Assembly: GCF_963664915.1 (NCBI RefSeq)
Contig: NZ_OY761810.1
Coordinates: 2,928,661-2,992,660 of the forward strand
Length of the DNA: 64,000 nt
Reading direction: 5' to 3'
Source of the DNA: an uncultured Caproiciproducens sp.
Lineage (GTDB): Bacteria; Bacillota; Clostridia; Oscillospirales; Acutalibacteraceae
The position numbers and the translations under genes are program-made. Positions 45,533 to 53,725 of this stretch are shown one piece after another (within the stretch, counting starts at the first letter, position 1; each line of letters starts with the position of its first letter). The notes under the pieces were generated by a model. That model saw nothing but the letters and a program-made list of their open reading frames with translations. It searched no databases and was not told the origin of the DNA.

Positions 45533-46534
45533 TTAAAATATGAGTATGAACAGTTTGGTCATTGCATAGCCAAGAATCAGGCAGGCCGGAAAAGTAAGTA
45601 CCCACGCCATTACCATTTCTTTGGCTATCCCCCAGTTAACATCGGAAAAGCGTCTGGCCGCTCCCGCACCCATCATTGCCGTACCCTTGGTGTTGGTGGT
45701 TGAGAGAGGAATTCCGGAAGATACCGTAGTGATCAGCATGCAGAGAGACGCCACAATTTCAGCGGAAAATCCCTGATATTTTTCCAGTTTCACCATGTCG
45801 ATTCCCATTGTTTTAATAATGCGGTAACCGCCGATGGATGTGCCAATCGCCATGACAATTGAACACAGGAACATAATCCAAATGTCAATATGTATTGATG
45901 CCGGAATCGGCTGATTATTAGCGAGAAGAATCACAAGCACAAAAACGCCCATAAATTTCTGACCGTCCTGCGCTCCATGGCTGGTAGCCATCAAAGCGGC
46001 GGAAGCGATCTGACCAATTGAGAAAAAACGGTTTGCTTTTGAGCGTTTCACACGGCGGAACAGGAACCCGACTACTTTGGTAACAAGGTAAGCTGCAAAA
46101 AAGCCGACAAACGTCGAAATAAGAATACCCCAAAGTACTTTTTGAAATTCTACCAACTTAAAAGCAGAAACGCCGTTATAGGCAATTCCCGCACCCATCA
46201 GCCCGGCAATCAGCGCATGGCTCTCACTGGTGGGAATCCCAAACTTCCAGGCCGATACCGACCATATTACTATGGAAAGCTGAGCCGCGCAAATTGCAAT
46301 GAGCGGGTTTGACCCGGTTCCCACGTTTACAAGATTGGCAATGGTGCTCGCAACAGCCGTACCAAAACACATGATACCGACCAAATTGAAAACAGTCGCC
46401 ATTAAAACAGCCGCTCGTGGGGAAAGCACTCGGGTCGAAACAACAGTAGCGATTGCATTCGGCGCATCCGTCCAACCGTTGACAAAAATGGAAGCGCACA
46501 CAAGGATAAGTGCAATAATGAGCGCGAGTGACAT
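45533..46534 (-). CDS. pit: Inorganic phosphate transporter, PiT family
   Basis: 333 aa, about ten membrane segments. Signature motifs VNGWTDAPNAIATVVSTR at the N-terminus and GIPLSTTNTKGTAMMGAGAARR in the second half. Low-affinity phosphate uptake. The upstream DNA has a Pho-box-like repeat array. Confidence 0.95.
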   Translation of the reverse strand: MSLALIIALILVCASIFVNGWTDAPNAIATVVSTRVLSPRAAVLMATVFNLVGIMCFGTAVASTIANLVNVGTGSNPLIAICAAQLSIVIWSVSAWKFGIPTSESHALIAGLMGAGIAYNGVSAFKLVEFQKVLWGILISTFVGFFAAYLVTKVVGFLFRRVKRSKANRFFSIGQIASAALMATSHGAQDGQKFMGVFVLVILLANNQPIPASIHIDIWIMFLCSIVMAIGTSIGGYRIIKTMGIDMVKLEKYQGFSAEIVASLCMLITTVSSGIPLSTTNTKGTAMMGAGAARRFSDVNWGIAKEMVMAWVLTFPACLILGYAMTKLFILIF

Positions 46535-46582
46535 TAAATAACCTCATTTCGTCCTGTCGAGTGATTATTTTTTTACTTTTGT

Positions 46583-46610
46583 TTAACACAATTATAACAG
46601 AATCTTAACA
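46583..46610. promoter_or_regulatory. Pho-box-like triple repeat upstream of pit
   Basis: TTAACA (46583-46588), ATAACA (46594-46599) and TTAACA (46605-46610) recur at exactly 11-bp spacing, matching the TT(A/T/C)ACA repeats bound by PhoP. On the pit strand TATAAT (46596-46591) overlaps, so PhoP could act at the promoter core. Confidence 0.6.
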
Positions 46611-46808
46611 AAATATAAATAGTAAAGATTTTATAAAAAGACGAATTAATTTGGCTATAGTAACCTTATTTTGTGCTTATTGCTTATTTGGTGCAGATTT
46701 ATACTATATTATAATGATTATTGATACTATATATTTATGATTTTATAAATAATTTTGAGTTTTTTGTATTTTTGAAAAAACTTGCTCATAAAGGGGAAAT
46801 ATTTCTGT

Positions 46809-46835
46809 AACACAATGAAACCGCCGCCATAAAAT
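46809..46835 (+). promoter_or_regulatory. Possible mother-cell (SigE/SigK-like) promoter of split gene
   Basis: AAC at 46809-46811, 16 bases, CATAAAAT at 46828-46835, close to the AC-N16/17-CATANNNTA pattern of SigK. It lies about 50 bases before the start codon. No better SigA promoter is visible. The rest of the gap 46611-46808 is AT-rich without signals. Confidence 0.35.
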
Positions 46836-46883
46836 GGTATTGAGAAACAAAGGTTTCACTAAATGTGTTAGGAGGATTATTTT

Positions 46884-46994
46884 ATGGATGGAAATAGCTC
46901 GGAAACATCTAATGTACAAAACTCAGGAACTTTTAATGAAGCTGTATGCATAGACGGAATGCGCGTATATGATTCATGCAGTGAAGTACAGTGA
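46884..46994 (+). CDS. 5' part of interrupted Cys-rich gene
   Basis: ATG after AGGAGG. Reads 36 aa: ...EAVCIDGMRVYDSCSEVQ then TGA. Residues 1-33 match the start of a conserved clostridial family whose motif is CID-NRVYDSC-DKDCLEDLRV; the match ends at the codon after DSC. Continuation DKDCLEDLRVYF is found 3.56 kb downstream (50542). Joined at TGA 46982-46984 / 50541-50543 the gene has 271 codons plus stop. Function of the family is not known to me; a spore surface role is only inference. Confidence 0.85.
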   Translation: MDGNSSETSNVQNSGTFNEAVCIDGMRVYDSCSEVQ

Positions 46995-46996
46995 AC
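46970..46996 (+). other. Predicted left attachment site (attL)
   Basis: Left junction of the intervening element. Chromosomal side ends TCATGCAG, core TGA at 46982-46984, element side AGTACAGTG. The reading frame leaves the family consensus right after the core. Confidence 0.7.
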
Positions 46997-47082
46997 AGCC
47001 TTCATACAAATGTCTTTTGTCAGCTGTGAAATTTCTGCATTTTTTACAAAAATCATCATACACTATTCTGGAGGTGATCGAT

Positions 47083-47259
47083 TTGGATTATGCAGGATTT
47101 TATGAGTTTCCTTTTCCCTCGGTTTTGTCCGATCATGACAGGGAGGTAAAGAATTTTTTCTTTTCGCTGTCGGATGACATGCAATTGAAATTACTAAACG
47201 GAAGTCGCTCTTATGAAAGTTTCCATGACCGCGTTACACAGTACATGAGCAAACAATAA
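47083..47259 (+). CDS. Small ORF, 58 aa, element-borne
   Basis: TTG start 5 bases after GGAGGTG; the frame is open upstream into the host gene but without a ribosome site. Product MDYAGFYEFPFPSVLSDH... with a C-terminal helix (SYESFHDRVTQYMSKQ). No family known to me. At 58 aa and beside attL it is a candidate for a recombination directionality factor, by analogy with SprB. Confidence 0.6.
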   Translation: MDYAGFYEFPFPSVLSDHDREVKNFFFSLSDDMQLKLLNGSRSYESFHDRVTQYMSKQ

Positions 47260-47266
47260 ACGACAC

Positions 47267-47296
47267 TGCCGCCCAATAGGGGCGGCTCTGTTTTGC
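47267..47296 (+). terminator. Terminator after 58-aa ORF
   Basis: GCCGCCC-AATA-GGGGCGGC stem followed by TCTGTTTTG. Confidence 0.75.
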
Positions 47297-47311
47297 CGAC
47301 GGCGCCTTCCC

Positions 47312-47464
47312 CTATTTTGAAATTCTTGCAAGACGCTTAAACAGTGTTTCATCAAGCTGCCGCTCTACATTGCGTTCAAATGCACGTTTGTATGCTGAAC
47401 AAAACCGGCGGCAAACCCTGTTGTTGAATCTGCTTCTGCATTTTCCACACGGTGCGCAGATCAT
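47312..47464 (-). CDS. Tiny Cys-rich ORF, 50 aa
   Basis: ATG 47464 with AAGGAGG 10 bases upstream, the ribosome site lying in the end of the preceding ORF. Product MICAPCGKCRSRFNNRVCRR and onward has five cysteines in the first 24 residues (CxxCxxC...C...C), so possibly zinc-binding, followed by a basic helix. Third of a three-gene set. Confidence 0.6.
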   Translation of the reverse strand: MICAPCGKCRSRFNNRVCRRFCSAYKRAFERNVERQLDETLFKRLARISK

Positions 47465-47472
47465 TGTATGTA

Positions 47473-47595
47473 TTACCTCCTTCCCAAAGACCGTGCACGG
47501 TCACCACGGTTAAATGCCCTGAGCCCTGCCCATGTCGGTGTCCATCCGTAATAACGGCAGAGAGCCATATATCCCTGAAGAACCTTGTATTTCAT
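47473..47595 (-). CDS. Tiny basic ORF, 40 aa
   Basis: ATG 47595 overlaps the stop of the upstream ORF (ATGA), with GGAGGG 5 bases before. Product MKYKVLQGYMALCRYYGWTP and a basic tail ending SLGRR. Tight coupling with both neighbours suggests a real operon; family unknown. Confidence 0.6.
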   Translation of the reverse strand: MKYKVLQGYMALCRYYGWTPTWAGLRAFNRGDRARSLGRR

Positions 47596-47792
47596 GGAAC
47601 CCTCCCCTTTCTATCGAACAGCTTTCCTGTACAATCACTGTCCCAATCGATCGTCACCTTCGTAGCACATCCGTTTTTTTCACTGCAGATCTGTTCTGTT
47701 ACATACCGCAGATTCTCCCTGTTGCGCGCGACCTCTTCGGGTGTGCCGGGTAAAATGTGCACCGCAACCGTTGGCTTTCCCGCATCGCCCAT
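47592..47792 (-). CDS. Small ORF, 66 aa, first of the element's minus-strand set
   Basis: ATG 47792 with GAGGTGA upstream. Product MGDAGKPTVAVHILPGTPEE and onward, with C-terminal GCATKVTIDWDSDC. Soluble, no family recognised. Lies divergent from the recombinase. A 6-bp hairpin GCTGCC-AAGTCC-GGCAGC (about 47840-47857) is in its leader. Confidence 0.6.
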   Translation of the reverse strand: MGDAGKPTVAVHILPGTPEEVARNRENLRYVTEQICSEKNGCATKVTIDWDSDCTGKLFDRKGRVP

Positions 47793-47950
47793 TTGTATCA
47801 CCTCATTTAAAAATATGAGGATTGGTGTTTGTCCTATTCACGCTGCCAAGTCCGGCAGCACTATTATTTTATGTTATTTTTGATATTTCGCGAATTTCTA
47901 TTGTGTTTTTTTAATGAATATTATGCTATAATTCAAGTGATGAAATAAAA

Positions 47951-47989
47951 GAAAAAGCCCCCGATTTCCCTCAAGAGGATTCGGAGGCT
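47951..47989 (-). terminator. Minus-strand terminator in the recombinase leader
   Basis: AGCCTCCGAATCC and its partner TCGGGGGCT pair on the minus strand, with G-U rather than mismatch on that strand, followed by TTTTTC. It would stop transcription coming from the recombinase gene in antisense direction. A TATAAT at about 47930 upstream may be the recombinase -10. Confidence 0.6.
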
Positions 47990-48082
47990 CAGAACATTAA
48001 ATTAAACGAAGGATTAAGAGATAATTTTTACAACTTCTTTAAGTACTTTCCCCAAAAATATGACAGTAAACCGGGTGATAAA

Positions 48083-49570
48083 GTGAATACGGCCATCTAT
48101 TTGCGCAAAAGCCGAGCGGAAGAATTGAGTGATACCATCGACGAAACATTAAAGCGGCATAAGGAAACCCTGTTGGAATTTGCTGCGAAAAACAATCTTA
48201 CCGTAGCAAAAATATATGAAGAAGTGGTTTCCGGTGAGTCGCTTTACGCCCGCCCGCAAATGTTAAAGCTGCTTGCAGATGTGGAACACGGTGATTATGA
48301 AGCTGTACTCTGTATGGATATTGACCGTCTGGGACGCGGAACAATGAGTGACCAGGGCGTAATCCTCGAAACGCTGAAAGACGCAGATACAAAAATAATC
48401 ACGCCGCGTAAAAGCTACGATCTCAGCAATGAAATGGATGAGACCTATTCCGAGTTTGAAACCTTTATGGCGCGGCAGGAACTGAAGGCAATTAAGCGGC
48501 GGATGCAGCGTGGCATCAAAAAAACAATAGCGGACGGCGGATACATAGCCAATGCCCCCTACGGGTATGTGAAAACAACGGTCAATAAGCGGCCCACTCT
48601 TGCTGTCAATGAAGAGGAAGCCCGATTTGTGCGGATGATGTACGATCTGTACGTTAATAAGGGCATGGGCTGTCAGCATATTGCCAACGCATTGAACGCT
48701 ATGGGAGCTAAGCCGCATCGTGCCAATCAATTCGGTCGATCGTCTGTTATGAAAATACTCCATAGCCCCACCTATATCGGCAAAATAGTTTGGAACCAGA
48801 AAACGCATATCCGAAAAGGCGCAAAAGGCAACAGTAAGCATATTACAATCAATAATCCGCAGGAGAAGTGGACGATTGTCGGCGGCATCCATCCGCCCAT
48901 TATTGACAAGACAATTTTTGAACAGGCGCAGAAAATATCTGCCTGCCGGTCCCATCCGCCGGCGAGTTCGGGGATTGTGGAAAATCCGCTCGCTGGTTTG
49001 GTCTACTGCTCGCATTGCGGCTCGTTAATGCAGCGGCAGGTAATCCGCCGCGGCGGCTCCTACCTTCTGTGTCAGAAACCCGGGTGCATGGTATCCTCGT
49101 CCCTTCCGCTTGTTGAGAGCGCGGTTTTGAATGAACTGAAGGACAGCCTTCAACGCTTAAAGCTCATACAGGAAACCACTGTGCCGCCACAGGAATACAA
49201 AAGCAGCGAAATCCTAAGTACAATTGACTCTGAAATGAAAACCACCGCAGGACAAATTGAAAAACTGCATGACTTGCTGGAGCAGGGCATTTATGATCTT
49301 AATACTTTTTTAACCCGGCAAACGCATTTGAACGAAAAAACCGCAAAGCTTCAGGAAGTGAGAAATTCAGTATTATTCATGCCGCGTGTTGACTGTTATA
49401 AGATGAGCCAGACAATCAATCATGTGCTGGCGGCCTATGAATCCGCTACTTTACAGAAAAAAAATTTGCTTTTAAAGTCCATCATTGATAAGATTGTTTA
49501 CTTTAAGGAAAAGGGCGCCAAACCCGCGCAATTTACGCTTGAGCTTTATTTAAAACCTCTTTGTTTATAA
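48083..49570 (+). CDS. Large serine recombinase (SpoIVCA type)
   Basis: 495 aa from GTG 48083, after GGGTGATAAA. Resolvase domain MNTAIYLRKSRAEELS with nucleophile Ser10, arginines in DIDRLGRGTMSDQG; recombinase domain (GMGCQHIANALNAMGAKPHRANQFGRSSVMKILHSPTYIGKIVWNQ); zinc ribbon with CSHCGSLM and CQKPGC (about 312-340) and a C-terminal coiled coil (LQKKNLLLKSIIDKIVYF). This is the domain set of SpoIVCA, SprA and phage integrases. Encoded within the intervening element, presumably catalyses its excision. Confidence 0.95.
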   Translation: MNTAIYLRKSRAEELSDTIDETLKRHKETLLEFAAKNNLTVAKIYEEVVSGESLYARPQMLKLLADVEHGDYEAVLCMDIDRLGRGTMSDQGVILETLKDADTKIITPRKSYDLSNEMDETYSEFETFMARQELKAIKRRMQRGIKKTIADGGYIANAPYGYVKTTVNKRPTLAVNEEEARFVRMMYDLYVNKGMGCQHIANALNAMGAKPHRANQFGRSSVMKILHSPTYIGKIVWNQKTHIRKGAKGNSKHITINNPQEKWTIVGGIHPPIIDKTIFEQAQKISACRSHPPASSGIVENPLAGLVYCSHCGSLMQRQVIRRGGSYLLCQKPGCMVSSSLPLVESAVLNELKDSLQRLKLIQETTVPPQEYKSSEILSTIDSEMKTTAGQIEKLHDLLEQGIYDLNTFLTRQTHLNEKTAKLQEVRNSVLFMPRVDCYKMSQTINHVLAAYESATLQKKNLLLKSIIDKIVYFKEKGAKPAQFTLELYLKPLCL

Positions 49571-49633
49571 ACCCACCGGTATTGGCAAAATACCCTTTGC
49601 GGCAGCATACTACAAATGATAGGAGTGATCAAA

Positions 49634-49915
49634 TTGGAATTCATTTATGAACAAAATCGTATTTACGTAAAAAACGAATCGGGTCTTGTGATTGCCGAGG
49701 TTACCTTTCCGGATATTGACGCTCAGACGGTAAACATCGACCATACCTTCGTGGATGATTCTCTGCGGGGTCAGGGCATTGCCGGAAAATTGCTGGAGGC
49801 CGCCGCCTCTACCCTTAGGCAGCAAAACAGGAAAGCATGCCTTACCTGTTCCTATGCTGTAAAATGGTTTGAAAAACATCCAGAATATTGCGATCTTCGT
49901 ACGAACAAGCCATAA
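49634..49915 (+). CDS. Small GNAT-like acetyltransferase (YidJ/PF14542 type)
   Basis: 93 aa from TTG 49634, after AGGAGTGATCAAA. LEFIYEQNRIYVKNESGLVIAEVTF and the acetyl-CoA loop DDSLRGQGIAGKLLEAA, then CSYAVKWFEKHPEYCDL: a short single-domain acetyltransferase. Cargo of the element; substrate unknown. Confidence 0.88.
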   Translation: MEFIYEQNRIYVKNESGLVIAEVTFPDIDAQTVNIDHTFVDDSLRGQGIAGKLLEAAASTLRQQNRKACLTCSYAVKWFEKHPEYCDLRTNKP

Positions 49916-50171
49916 ATCTAACAACTTCGACATGAAGTATCCCTTTAAAATTTTTCTTATAAGTCAAAATAGTCACATTATCGAAAATTTGCATCTAAAT
50001 ATCCATAAAAATTCCTTCATAAGACGAATTTATTTTGTTTATTCATCCTATTTTTATTCATTCCTTAAAACTTCTAAAAATGCGACTTTTTTCGCTATTG
50101 CAATTTTAATACATTTCCTTTAAAATTACAAATGTTGCGCAACCAATTAAAAATAAAAGGATGTTTTTAAA

Positions 50172-50405
50172 ATGCAAAGTATTAGTGTGAATCTAAAAAC
50201 GCTTAAGGAAAAATTAATGGAAATTGAAAAAGACGAAATGGGCTTAATCGAACTTCATATCGTTGCAAGTCAGGTTGACGACAAACTCAATCACCCCGCA
50301 TTTCTTCATTTGGAAGGAATTTCTGAAACCGGAGAATACAAAGACTATGAAAGTCTTGACGAATGCCCTGTCATGCAATACCTGCTAATGAATATGCCTG
50401 CATAA
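50172..50405 (+). CDS. Small acidic protein, 77 aa
   Basis: ATG after AAAAGGA at 50157-50163. Product MQSISVNLKTLKEKLMEIEK and a strand-rich middle (LIELHIVASQVDDKLNHPAFL), no family recognised. Lies in the element, nearest attR. The gap 49916-50171 has only a low-quality overlapping frame. Confidence 0.6.
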   Translation: MQSISVNLKTLKEKLMEIEKDEMGLIELHIVASQVDDKLNHPAFLHLEGISETGEYKDYESLDECPVMQYLLMNMPA

Positions 50406-50526
50406 TCCCCTATCGTAACGATACATAGCACTGCCGGGTATCTTAGTATTCATTATAAAATAGAATAATAAAAGAGGTACTAAACCTGCTTCGCTTTCGA
50501 GCTTGATCGTTAGTGTATACATCTAA

Positions 50527-50553
50527 CCTGTATACTCTTTTGATAAAGATTGC
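50527..50553 (+). other. Predicted right attachment site (attR)
   Basis: Element side CTGTATACTCTTT, core TGA at 50541-50543, chromosomal side TAAAGATTGCC. Upstream on the element side an in-frame TAA (50524) closes the frame, so the 3' half is not translated on its own with the right start. Confidence 0.7.
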
Positions 50554-51258
50554 CTTGAAGACTTAAGGGTTTACTTCCCACCGGATAAGCACGACCTGAT
50601 TGAGCATGCAACCAACGTCAGACTTAGAAATGCTGATGTTATTACGGTGTTCCTTGATTTGGAGCCGGTGCCATTTAACAGGGGTTTCTATTCGGTTGAT
50701 ATGACCTTTTTCTTCGATGTATGCGTGGACGTATTTTGTCCGTTGGCTACCAGCCCCTCTATTGTAAATGGTGTATCCATATTTAGCAAAAGGGTAATTT
50801 TGTATGGCAGCGAGGGCAACGTAAAAATGTTCAGTTCCGATTGCGCGCAGGACGACTTGGATGGTCAGAATTCTATGGACGGCGACGTGCTTCCAAAGGC
50901 AACCTGTCAGGTTGCAGAGCCGATTTGTCTCTCCGCCAGGATTTGCGACTGCCAGTCGCATTGCAACGAAAGTTGCTGCCGGATTCCCGACTGCATCTGC
51001 AGGCATTTCGGCGGCCAACTTGATTTTGCATCAAATCGTACTGTTTATGCTACAATTGGTATTTTTACTATTGTTCAAATTGTGAGAAATGTACAAATGC
51101 TGATTCCCGCGTACGACTTCTGCATCCCGGATAAAGAATGTGTCACTACATCAGACGATCCATGCGATATGTTCCGCCGCATAGAGTTTCCGACCGACGA
51201 GTTTTTCCCGCCCAAGGTCAGCGACTGCAGCTGCAATGACCGTTCCCACAGATCATAA
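50542..51258 (+). CDS. 3' part of interrupted Cys-rich gene
   Basis: Reads DKDCLEDLRVYFPPDKHDL and onward, 238 aa to TGA, without its own start codon or ribosome site. Family features: FLDLEPVPFNRGFYSVDMTFFF, RVILYGSEGNVKMFSSD, a cysteine cluster (ICDCQSHCNESCCRIPDCICR), then DFCIPDKECVTTSDDPCDMFRR and FPTDEFFPPK. The internal GTG at 50647 is not a plausible start because the conserved part lies upstream of it. Completed by the N-terminal part at 46884. Confidence 0.85.
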   Translation, partial: DKDCLEDLRVYFPPDKHDLIEHATNVRLRNADVITVFLDLEPVPFNRGFYSVDMTFFFDVCVDVFCPLATSPSIVNGVSIFSKRVILYGSEGNVKMFSSDCAQDDLDGQNSMDGDVLPKATCQVAEPICLSARICDCQSHCNESCCRIPDCICRHFGGQLDFASNRTVYATIGIFTIVQIVRNVQMLIPAYDFCIPDKECVTTSDDPCDMFRRIEFPTDEFFPPKVSDCSCNDRSHRS

Positions 51259-51284
51259 AGAAAAGAAGCAATCCGTTGATTACA

Positions 51285-51322
51285 AATAAAGCCCGCCTGT
51301 TTTTATTCAGGCGGGCTTTATT
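51285..51322. terminator. Bidirectional terminator
   Basis: AATAAAGCCCGCCTG and its complement around TTTTTATT; T-rich on both sides. Ends both the split gene and pcrA. Confidence 0.92.
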
Positions 51323-51331
51323 GTATTTTTA

Positions 51332-53725
51332 TTATGCTTTTTCCAGACGCGCAAAATTTGCCATCAGCTTTTTCGTGCCTGCATTATCAAAGGCAATCTC
51401 CAAAAGGGTGTCGTTGCCCATGGGGGAAGCAGAAAGCACCATGCCCGTTCCAAACGTTTTGTGTGTCACGCTGTCGCCCGCTTTCAGCTGAACAGCCGGC
51501 GGCTCGCTGTGTATCAGGGTTGATGGACCAAAGCTGCGTGCCGATTCAGTCGTAACCACCCTCGCTTCAAAAGCGGATGTGGGAAGGCTGGTTCCCGGCT
51601 TTGGCTTTTTCCATTCTCTGGAACGACTGCGAACAATCAAATCATCGGGCATTTCCTCAATAAAGCGGGATGCCTTGTTGCGGGAGGTGCTGCCGAAAAT
51701 CATGCGGCTTTCCGCATTGACGACATACAGTTCCTCCTTCGCCCTAGTGATGGCAACATAAGCCAGGCGGCGCTCCTCTTCAATTTCGACAGGATTGTAA
51801 ATTGCCTGCATTCCCGGAAAAATACCTTCTTCAAACCCAGGCAGGAATACGACCGGAAATTCCAAACCTTTCGCTGAATGAATCGTCATCATCACCACGC
51901 TGTCGGAGTTCGGGTCAAAGTTGTCAATGTCGGTAATCAGGGACACTTCTTCAAGGAAGCCCGACAGGGTCGCCTCTTCACCGTTGTCCTCCTCATACTT
52001 GATCAAATTGGATGCAAGCTCATTGATATTGTCAATCCGATCCTGAGCGTCATCATTTTCAGATGCACACAGGCTTCCAATATAATCCGTTTTATCGAGA
52101 ATCAGATGATAAAGCTCATTTAAACTTGTATGTTCATCGTTCGCGGCATCAATCAGCTCCTGCATTGTATTCGCGAACTGAAGAAGCTTTGGCGATGTGC
52201 GTTTCAGCGGCTCATATTGATCCGCGTGCTTAATGACATCAAACACACTTTCGCCCACCGTTGCGGCAATTTCGGTAGCTTGTGCAATCGTTTTATCCCC
52301 AATGGAGCGTTTTGGCTGATTAATAATGCGGCGTAAACGAATTTCGTCATTAGGGTTGTTAATTACACTCAAATATGCAATCATATCCCTGATTTCTTTT
52401 CGTTCATAGAAACGCAGACCGCCTACAATTCGGTATGGAATGCCGGATTTTACAAATATTTTTTCAAGGATATTCGATTGGGAATTCATACGGTACAAAA
52501 TTGCATAATCCGAAAATTTCCTGCCTGCCGCAACACCGGCCAGCACTTTTTTAGCAATAAAATCCGCTTCATCCTGTTCGCTGAAAGCGGTGTGCACACC
52601 GAGCTTTTCTCCGTCCGCGTTGTCTGTCCAAAGTGTTTTTCCTTTGCGCTCAGTATTGTTCTCAATCACTGCATTCGCAGCATTCAAAATGTTTTTGGTA
52701 GAGCGATAGTTTTGCTCCAAGCGGACTACCTTTGCATTTGGAAAGGATCTCTCAAAGTTCATAATATTTTCAATGGTCGCGCCACGGAATTTGTAAATAC
52801 TCTGATCGTCATCACCGACAACGCAAAGGTTCGTGCTTTTTTGAGCAAGCAATTTAACCATCATGTACTGCGCATGATTGGTGTCCTGATACTCATCGAC
52901 CATAATATATTTGAATTTATTCTGATAATACTCCAAAACCTCCGGATTCTGCTGCAGCAGGAACACTGCATTGCAGATTAAATCGTCAAAATCCATGGCG
53001 TCCGCTTCTTTAAGTCTTGCCTGATAAAGCTTGTACGCCTGTGCGATGAGCCCCAGTCTGTTGTCGCTGCCGGCCTGCTGCATATATTCCTCCGGCTGAA
53101 TCATGCTGTCTTTCGCATGAGAAACCGCAGACAGAATCGATTTATGTGAAAGAAGCTTATCGTCAATACCAAGGGCCTTCTGACATTCCTTCATCATACG
53201 GCGGGAGTCATCCGAATCATAAATAGTAAAATGGTTTGAATAGCCGAGCTTTGAGCCGTCATGCCTGAGCATGCGCGCACAGGTCGAATGGAATGTGGAA
53301 GCCCAGATATCATTGCCTTCTTCACCGAGCATGCTGATCAGCCTGCTCTTCAGTTCGCCGGCGGCCTTATTGGTAAATGTAATGGCAAGAATCTGCCAAG
53401 GGCGGCAGGAATCCACCGCAAAGCGGTTTTTCACCTGCTGCGGCAAAGGTTCTCCTGCACTCAGGTACTGTTTGGCTGCATTCAAGTCATCATCAGTTAA
53501 ATCGTTTGAAACGATCTTACTCATATAAGCGTTTCCGTAACGGATAATATTGGCAATACGGTTCACCAGCACGGTGGTCTTCCCGCTTCCGGCGCCCGCA
53601 AGAATGAGCAGAGGGCCGTTAATACAGAAGACTGCCTCCCTCTGCATGTCATTCATTCTGAAAAATTCCTTGTTCAGAACATTTTTCCTAATTTCAATCA
53701 TTTGATCCGTTGTAGTATTGTTCAT
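51332..53725 (-). CDS. pcrA: UvrD/PcrA-type ATP-dependent DNA helicase
   Basis: 797 aa SF1A helicase. Motif I LAGAGSGKTTVLVNRI, Ia TFTNKAAGELKSRL, II VDEYQDTN, III GDDDQSIYKFRGA, IV LEQNYRSTKNIL, V VMMTIHSAKGLEFPVVFLPG, VI AYVAITRAKEELYV, and a C-terminal Tudor-like segment (KAGDSVTHKTFGTGMVL) typical of PcrA. Works in repair and replication. Confidence 0.96.
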   Translation of the reverse strand: MNNTTTDQMIEIRKNVLNKEFFRMNDMQREAVFCINGPLLILAGAGSGKTTVLVNRIANIIRYGNAYMSKIVSNDLTDDDLNAAKQYLSAGEPLPQQVKNRFAVDSCRPWQILAITFTNKAAGELKSRLISMLGEEGNDIWASTFHSTCARMLRHDGSKLGYSNHFTIYDSDDSRRMMKECQKALGIDDKLLSHKSILSAVSHAKDSMIQPEEYMQQAGSDNRLGLIAQAYKLYQARLKEADAMDFDDLICNAVFLLQQNPEVLEYYQNKFKYIMVDEYQDTNHAQYMMVKLLAQKSTNLCVVGDDDQSIYKFRGATIENIMNFERSFPNAKVVRLEQNYRSTKNILNAANAVIENNTERKGKTLWTDNADGEKLGVHTAFSEQDEADFIAKKVLAGVAAGRKFSDYAILYRMNSQSNILEKIFVKSGIPYRIVGGLRFYERKEIRDMIAYLSVINNPNDEIRLRRIINQPKRSIGDKTIAQATEIAATVGESVFDVIKHADQYEPLKRTSPKLLQFANTMQELIDAANDEHTSLNELYHLILDKTDYIGSLCASENDDAQDRIDNINELASNLIKYEEDNGEEATLSGFLEEVSLITDIDNFDPNSDSVVMMTIHSAKGLEFPVVFLPGFEEGIFPGMQAIYNPVEIEEERRLAYVAITRAKEELYVVNAESRMIFGSTSRNKASRFIEEMPDDLIVRSRSREWKKPKPGTSLPTSAFEARVVTTESARSFGPSTLIHSEPPAVQLKAGDSVTHKTFGTGMVLSASPMGNDTLLEIAFDNAGTKKLMANFARLEKA

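Follow-up and report, generated by a model that had tools for sequence, protein, structure and literature searches.

The window analyzed here, a stretch of 64,000 nucleotides (nt) from an uncultured Caproiciproducens sp., is part of a 3.1-Mb genome that forms one contig and is labelled G000. Within the window lies a cysteine-rich gene split into two parts by an intervening element, which encodes a large serine recombinase, a GNAT-like open reading frame (ORF) and several small ORFs. The 33 codons of the 5' part and the 238 codons of the 3' part join without any frame change into a gene of 271 codons, 20 of them for cysteine. The break point of this gene is referred to as site A, and the labels G and L denote genomes and loci, respectively. 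G005, used below for delimiting the element, is a genome of the same genus with an uninterrupted copy. The features of the split gene and its element are:

46884..46984, plus strand: 5' exon, 33 codons from the ATG at 46884 with the TGA core at its end, placed from the sequence and homologous 5' parts
46982..46984, unstranded: attL crossover core (att, attachment site), TGA in the window; the eight genus elements with both ends read share GA
46985..50543, unstranded: intervening element, 3,559 nt, placed from the element-end comparison and blastn against G005
48083..49570, plus strand: large serine recombinase, 495 amino acids, with PF00239, PF07508, PF13408, a match to phrog_95 (integrase) and active-site motifs
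50541..50543, unstranded: attR crossover core, TGA in the window, placed from the element-end comparison and the blastn breakpoints against G005
50542..51258, plus strand: 3' exon, 238 codons and a stop at 51256-51258; the frame opens DKDCLEDLRVYF

Left unjoined, the 5' part reads ...RVYDSCS and then continues with E-V-Q and a stop, and the first 35 codons of the 3' exon in the window contain no in-frame ATG, GTG or TTG. Across the junction, the joined gene carries the family motif YDSC-x-DKDC, which is read through in 69 of the 80 best named relatives and broken in the other 11; four of these broken loci (L045-L048) belong to genomes that are counted also in the genus set described below. A preliminary description of the locus, made from the DNA letters, had proposed the junction coordinates, the TGA at both ends, the in-frame join of 271 codons and the restoration of a family motif, and all of this could be confirmed on the sequence. 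The element was also said to have a serine recombinase of its own and no phage structural genes. Both statements hold: the Resolvase, Recombinase and zinc-ribbon domains were found with the catalytic motifs YLRKSR and DIDRLGRG kept, and no phage structural family was detected among five element ORFs, of which four were scanned with Pfam and NCBIfam and four with PHROGs. The matches of the element ORFs were to recombinase/integrase-type and GNAT families and to one PHROG of unknown function at an E value of 0.09.

The same arrangement was found in most of the genus. Among 11 Caproiciproducens genomes searched, the gene was present in ten and not seen in G009. Nine of the ten copies are interrupted at the same codon, the tenth being the uninterrupted one of G005. 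Eight of the nine interrupted genomes have a homologous 5' part 2.7-3.9 kb upstream, on the same strand; in the ninth, G006, the contig ends before any 5' part. In all nine the best recombinase match of the genome adjoins the 3' part (61-100% identity), and both the recombinase tree and the target tree recover the pairs G002/G010 and G007/G001 as well as a group formed by G000, G002, G003, G008 and G010. G005 is nested inside the interrupted group in the target tree (support 100/99), and its blastn alignment with the window stops at 46984 and restarts at 50541, with a 3-nt overlap that is the TGA. No element-type recombinase was found in the G005 assembly, which is only 64% complete. A second pair consists of the interrupted locus L049 and the intact locus L050, sisters in the target tree with 3'-exon DNA that is 84% alike. 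Explaining the interrupted state on this tree takes seven changes, and well-supported branches force five or more of them; site A must have been hit or cleared repeatedly. Across the genus, the element is best read as an inherited, stripped-down element resembling skin, the element that splits sigK. Two checks proposed in the preliminary description thus had a positive outcome: uninterrupted homologs align through the junction (the 69 named relatives, and G005 at the exact breakpoints), and strain comparison yielded a natural empty site in G005. The genus-wide conservation had escaped that description, as had an ORF at 47592-47792 and two other split spore genes of G000, all of which are treated below.

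Important insight can be gained from the selection acting on the two halves. In the nine interrupted species, the ratio of nonsynonymous to synonymous polymorphism (pN/pS) of the 3' exon is 0.164. For its codons 1-35 the value is 0.129, or 0.148 if the six codons beside the recombination site are removed (codons 7-35). In eight of the nine species these 35 codons contain no in-frame ATG, GTG or TTG, and in each of the nine an in-frame stop is located 5-22 codons ahead of the exon. The 3' exon is thus under strong purifying selection although its first 35 codons lack a start in nearly all species, and its headless, constrained beginning is best explained by translation within the joined gene. 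The 5' exon (pN/pS 0.214, 8 sequences) and the recombinase (0.33, 9 sequences) gave somewhat higher values.

To describe the gene itself, its upstream region and its distribution were analyzed. The following feature was identified in front of the 5' exon:

46810..46836, plus strand: promoter motif of sigmaK type for the split gene, ACACAATGAAACCGCCGCCATAAAATG, AC-N16-CATAAAATG, within a conserved block (nine genus genomes)

The sigmaK pattern AC-N15-18-CATANNNT[AG] was sought up to 200 nt upstream of the target gene and occurred at 63 of 75 loci, these being the 80 named relatives minus five lacking a start with a ribosome site; in 200 mononucleotide shuffles the mean was 2.4 and the maximum 7. 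As background, it was present in 2.3% of random 200-nt windows of the same loci and upstream of 33 of 820 other ORFs of at least 200 amino acids. A cruder control based on the first ATG gave 45 of 63 target-like ORFs against 33 of 820 others (pooled, 78/883). The gene was found in 247 of 297 genomes of an evenly drawn sample of the order. SpoIVA was then sought in 46 genomes, namely 23 of the 247 gene-bearing ones, 20 of the 50 gene-lacking ones and three picked for lacking sporulation sigma factors; it was present in 23 of 23 genomes with the target and in 13 of 23 without it. Leaving out the three picked genomes, the comparison is 23/23 to 13/20 (hypergeometric p 0.0024). Altogether, the sigmaK-type motif and the co-occurrence with SpoIVA provide indirect evidence that the target is a sporulation gene, and it looks like a late mother-cell gene. 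Sixty-three intact copies are 260-288 amino acids long and contain 11-27 cysteines. No family in Pfam or NCBIfam matched the target. Against solved structures the best sequence match was S-arrestin at an E value of 0.72, taken as chance, and a Foldseek search with a model of the intact relative L050 (mean predicted local distance difference test, pLDDT, 76.6; mainly beta) gave no match at an E value of 0.001.

Within the element, attention was drawn to a small ORF on the strand opposite to the recombinase:

47592..47792, minus strand: small ORF, 66 amino acids, candidate recombination directionality factor, with homologs in site-A elements
47809..47839, minus strand: sigmaE-type promoter motif of the 66-amino-acid ORF, overlapping a SpoIIID-like box at 47827-47836

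Similarity searches detected homologs of this ORF in 14 site-A elements across genera, and a profile search added one more. A sigmaE-type pattern is located upstream of it in 11 of the 14 homologous regions, compared to a mean of 0.17 and a maximum of 2 in 500 shuffles, 1.2% of random windows and 17 of 820 upstream regions of other long ORFs. The sequence TAGGACA, which fits the SpoIIID consensus, is also present in 11 of the 14 regions and overlaps the sigmaE pattern in eight. The predicted structure of the 66-amino-acid product shows one main helix (mean pLDDT 74.7). The 77-amino-acid ORF of the element (listed below) was also considered for the role of directionality factor and was dropped, as it occurs in seven genus elements only, compared to 14 elements across genera for the minus-strand ORF.

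Taken together, these observations make it highly probable that the window harbors a sporulation-regulated, skin-like intervening element, reduced to little beyond a recombination module. Very probably it removes itself when a spore is made, and the gene would work only then. The mechanism is strongly implied by the sequence features and could proceed as follows. In the mother cell, sigmaE, with SpoIIID, would switch on the small directionality factor, which would make the recombinase join attL to attR. The element would be released as a circle, from a chromosome that will be lost in any event, and the rebuilt gene would then be transcribed by sigmaK, giving a cysteine-rich protein of the spore coat or exosporium. 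Excision in the mother cell would in this order precede the action of sigmaK, and the forespore copy would retain the element. For the mother-cell excision already suspected in the preliminary description, the sigmaK-type motif at the target and the sigmaE-type motif at the 66-amino-acid ORF now provide support at the sequence level. In terms of classification, the segments can be rejoined in frame at a shared core and a large serine recombinase with intact active-site motifs is encoded between them, as in sporulation-specific intervening elements; the phage structural genes of a prophage were not found in the ORFs scanned, nor was the RNA structure of an intron by Rfam. The type as such is known, but this member is small, lacks detectable phage structural genes, is spread genus-wide and sits in a repeatedly hit gene of sigmaK type.

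Most sporulation elements known so far have been described from single strains, and most are prophages. The skin elements of C. difficile and B. subtilis likewise consist of an element with a large serine recombinase that splits a mother-cell gene. The C. difficile recombinase CD1231 is constitutive, and what limits excision to the mother cell is the directionality factor CD1234, which sigmaE and SpoIIID control (PMC5025042); by the same logic, excision of the window element would be confined to the mother cell. In contrast to skin, the target here is a sigmaK-type gene rather than sigK, and the element, known from its sequence, is of 3.6 kb with no phage structural gene found. The gin element in gerE of Bacillus cereus ATCC10987 also has no phage-related genes and is excised during sporulation by a serine recombinase with a small partner, GirX, of 42 amino acids (PMC5595907). 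However, gin is 28.6 kb long with three recombinase genes and a 9-bp core (PMC5595907), compared to 3.56 kb, one recombinase and a core of 2-3 bp here, and the window element is common to a genus. In the case of yin, found in yabG of a C. botulinum isolate, a clostridial sporulation gene is again split by an excisable element, yet yin is prophage-like and, per its authors, absent from other strains and species (PMC10747680), whereas the window element is genus-wide and has relatives at the same site in other genera. Excision of SPbeta rebuilds the spore-envelope gene spsM, as would be expected here, but SPbeta is an active prophage (PMC4191935). Regarding the product, CsxA (299 amino acids, 25 cysteines) and CsxC (273 amino acids, 14 cysteines) of the C. 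sporogenes exosporium (PMC4942563, PMC7333573) resemble the target in the two properties compared, size and cysteine content. Among the top-ranked open-licence papers found by literature searches, none dealt in its title or displayed abstract with the gene family, a split cotJC or sporulation elements in Caproiciproducens, which by itself does not prove absence.

Other explanations of the split were weighed against this reading. The element could be excised for reasons unrelated to development, by random or stress-induced phase variation or as an ordinary mobile element. This is improbable, even though the site-A elements include a prophage-like one (L175) and the window recombinase shows no sporulation-type motif, because the candidate directionality factor has a sigmaE-type motif in 11 of 14 regions and vegetative excision would be of little use to a target of sigmaK type. 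Less probable still is a decayed mobile element in a dead gene, where insertion inactivated the gene and a remnant was left. The lengths of the genus elements, which vary from 2.7 to 3.9 kb, would suit such decay, as would the small size and missing phage structural genes of an element whose counterpart at the same site, L175, has a terminase small subunit. However, both halves remain open and under purifying selection in the interrupted species, and the active-site motifs of the recombinase and the sigmaK-type block are kept.

The 3' part could alternatively be a separate gene with its own start and a shortened protein, as the window and six other interrupted species have an in-frame GTG at its codon 36 (50647 in the window). 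We consider this very unlikely, since the codons ahead of that start, in eight of nine species, are as constrained as the rest of the exon (see the values above) and are preceded by an in-frame stop throughout. Removal at the RNA level by an intron, or at the protein level by an intein, has hardly any plausibility: beyond the interrupted frame itself nothing speaks for it, no intron family was found by Rfam in 46500-51600 at E values up to 0.5, and the element has both a serine recombinase and an att-type core. At the same threshold there was no Rfam match at all inside the element, and four weak ones, below gathering scores, at 51250-51400. An intein is excluded by the stops on both sides.

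Several observations weigh against a developmentally excised, skin-like element. The 66-amino-acid ORF owes its candidacy as directionality factor to its position, its conservation and its promoter motif. Its sequence changes rapidly (pN/pS 0.53 over 8 sequences, 0.38 over five close ones), and among the 22 site-A loci that have a related recombinase, no homolog was detected at seven, some of them partly covered (L058, L062, L074, L118, L179, L180, L181). Both the sigmaE and the sigmaK pattern were fixed after the genus sequences had been viewed. The sigmaK pattern is missing from 12 of the 75 upstream regions, among them those of the interrupted loci L058 and L062, and the window recombinase has neither a sigmaE nor a sigmaK motif in the 320 nt upstream. 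The target's probable role as a spore coat or exosporium protein involved in building the outer layers is suggested by its motif, cysteine content and distribution, with no family or fold matched. C. galactitolivorans has been described as non-spore-forming. Regarding the phylogeny, G008 is placed differently in the target and recombinase trees, at weakly supported forks of the target tree, and the 21 site-A recombinases share one side of a branch with weak support (17/58). Among ten site-A breaks of the order sample, no same-clade recombinase was found in the stretch examined at L178, L182 and L183, and the contig of L176 is too short. The break in G036 shows no same-clade recombinase in its 3.1 kb. 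Long open frames separate the pieces of the two-piece matches in G184, G308 and G318, which perhaps do not represent insertions.

A loose sigmaE pattern for the recombinase, chosen after seeing three cases, was found in 7 of 22 elements (shuffled mean 1.4, maximum 6). Three of the seven carriers are close relatives and the window is not among them; the pattern was not used.

Site A was found broken at least 11 times in the order sample. In six of ten such breaks, a recombinase of the same clade immediately precedes the 3' exon. The elements at L058 and L062 are of 1.9 kb and hold little beyond the recombinase gene, with no detectable homolog of the 66-amino-acid ORF; at these two loci and at L066 the recombinase is inverted and located at the opposite end of the element. 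At the other extreme is L175, from another genus, where no 5' exon was found within 12.4 kb and a terminase small subunit is encoded close to the far end. In view of this range, from little more than a recombinase gene to terminase-bearing, the window element appears to be what is left of a prophage-type element, reduced to its recombination module. Break points other than site A were also observed. In G022 (L040) and G049 (L041), the target is split near residue 156, with a distant serine recombinase (24-28% identity) shortly before the 3' part, and in G069, G208 and G285 it is broken near residues 77-80. In the case of L042 (G037), a fragment with part of the target is found 18 kb away on the opposite strand, possibly an inversion or a second copy.

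The remaining features of the element are:

49616..49915, plus strand: GNAT-like acetyltransferase (cargo), PF14542; whole homologs in three other genus elements and a remnant in a fourth
50082..50107, plus strand: 26-nt nearly invariant block upstream of the 77-amino-acid ORF, from an alignment of seven genus elements
50172..50405, plus strand: conserved 77-amino-acid ORF, in seven of the nine interrupted genus genomes

The 26-nt block reads GCGACTTTTTTCGCTATTGCAATTTT and contains the inverted repeat GCGA/TCGC. The pN/pS of the 77-amino-acid ORF is 0.23 (7 sequences). The element at L038 (G004) has no such ORF and carries one of 423 amino acids, uracil/xanthine permease-like by reading. The split gene is flanked by a phosphate-permease-like ORF on one side and a UvrD/PcrA-like ORF on the other, both named by reading.

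Two further spore genes are split in G000. The sigK gene (C1:1961000-1975000, L131, reverse strand) is interrupted in the manner of skin: its 5' part closes with GISRSYVS, and about 5.7 kb further along, directly after a serine recombinase, comes RIEKKSLGALYKRFTK. By profile, sigK is cut short in four of the 11 genus genomes. The other is a gene of the Mn-catalase family, CotJC-like by reading, with exon 1 at C1:326818-326916 and the rest at 334846-335361, 7.9 kb lying between. Whether these cases together reflect a more general principle appears evenly balanced to us. In that case, spore-envelope genes of Oscillospirales would as a rule be stored in fragments and rejoined in the DNA itself by stripped-down, inherited and domesticated pairs of recombinase and directionality factor, acting as 'DNA introns' that are genus-wide and several per genome, and building the coat would need ordered excisions in the mother cell. 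The cases covered would be the target gene, sigK and the CotJC-like gene, which has up to three exons.

The findings touch on the question of whether sporulation elements belong to the programme or are parasites that a dead-end cell can afford to tolerate. A small, nearly genus-wide element in a gene that is selected although cut, together with a precise natural loss, makes its role testable by comparison with and without it, and the conserved small ORF with its mother-cell-type motif is a candidate for how the timing could be set. Compact pairs of recombinase and directionality factor could be useful as tools, too.

Among the ten genus genomes with a match to the CotJC-like gene, it is whole in G006, in two or three pieces in eight and represented by one piece in G009, with about four different break points across the genus (L125-L130 among the loci). 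The CotJC-like gene is also found in pieces elsewhere in the order, e.g. in G031 and G048.

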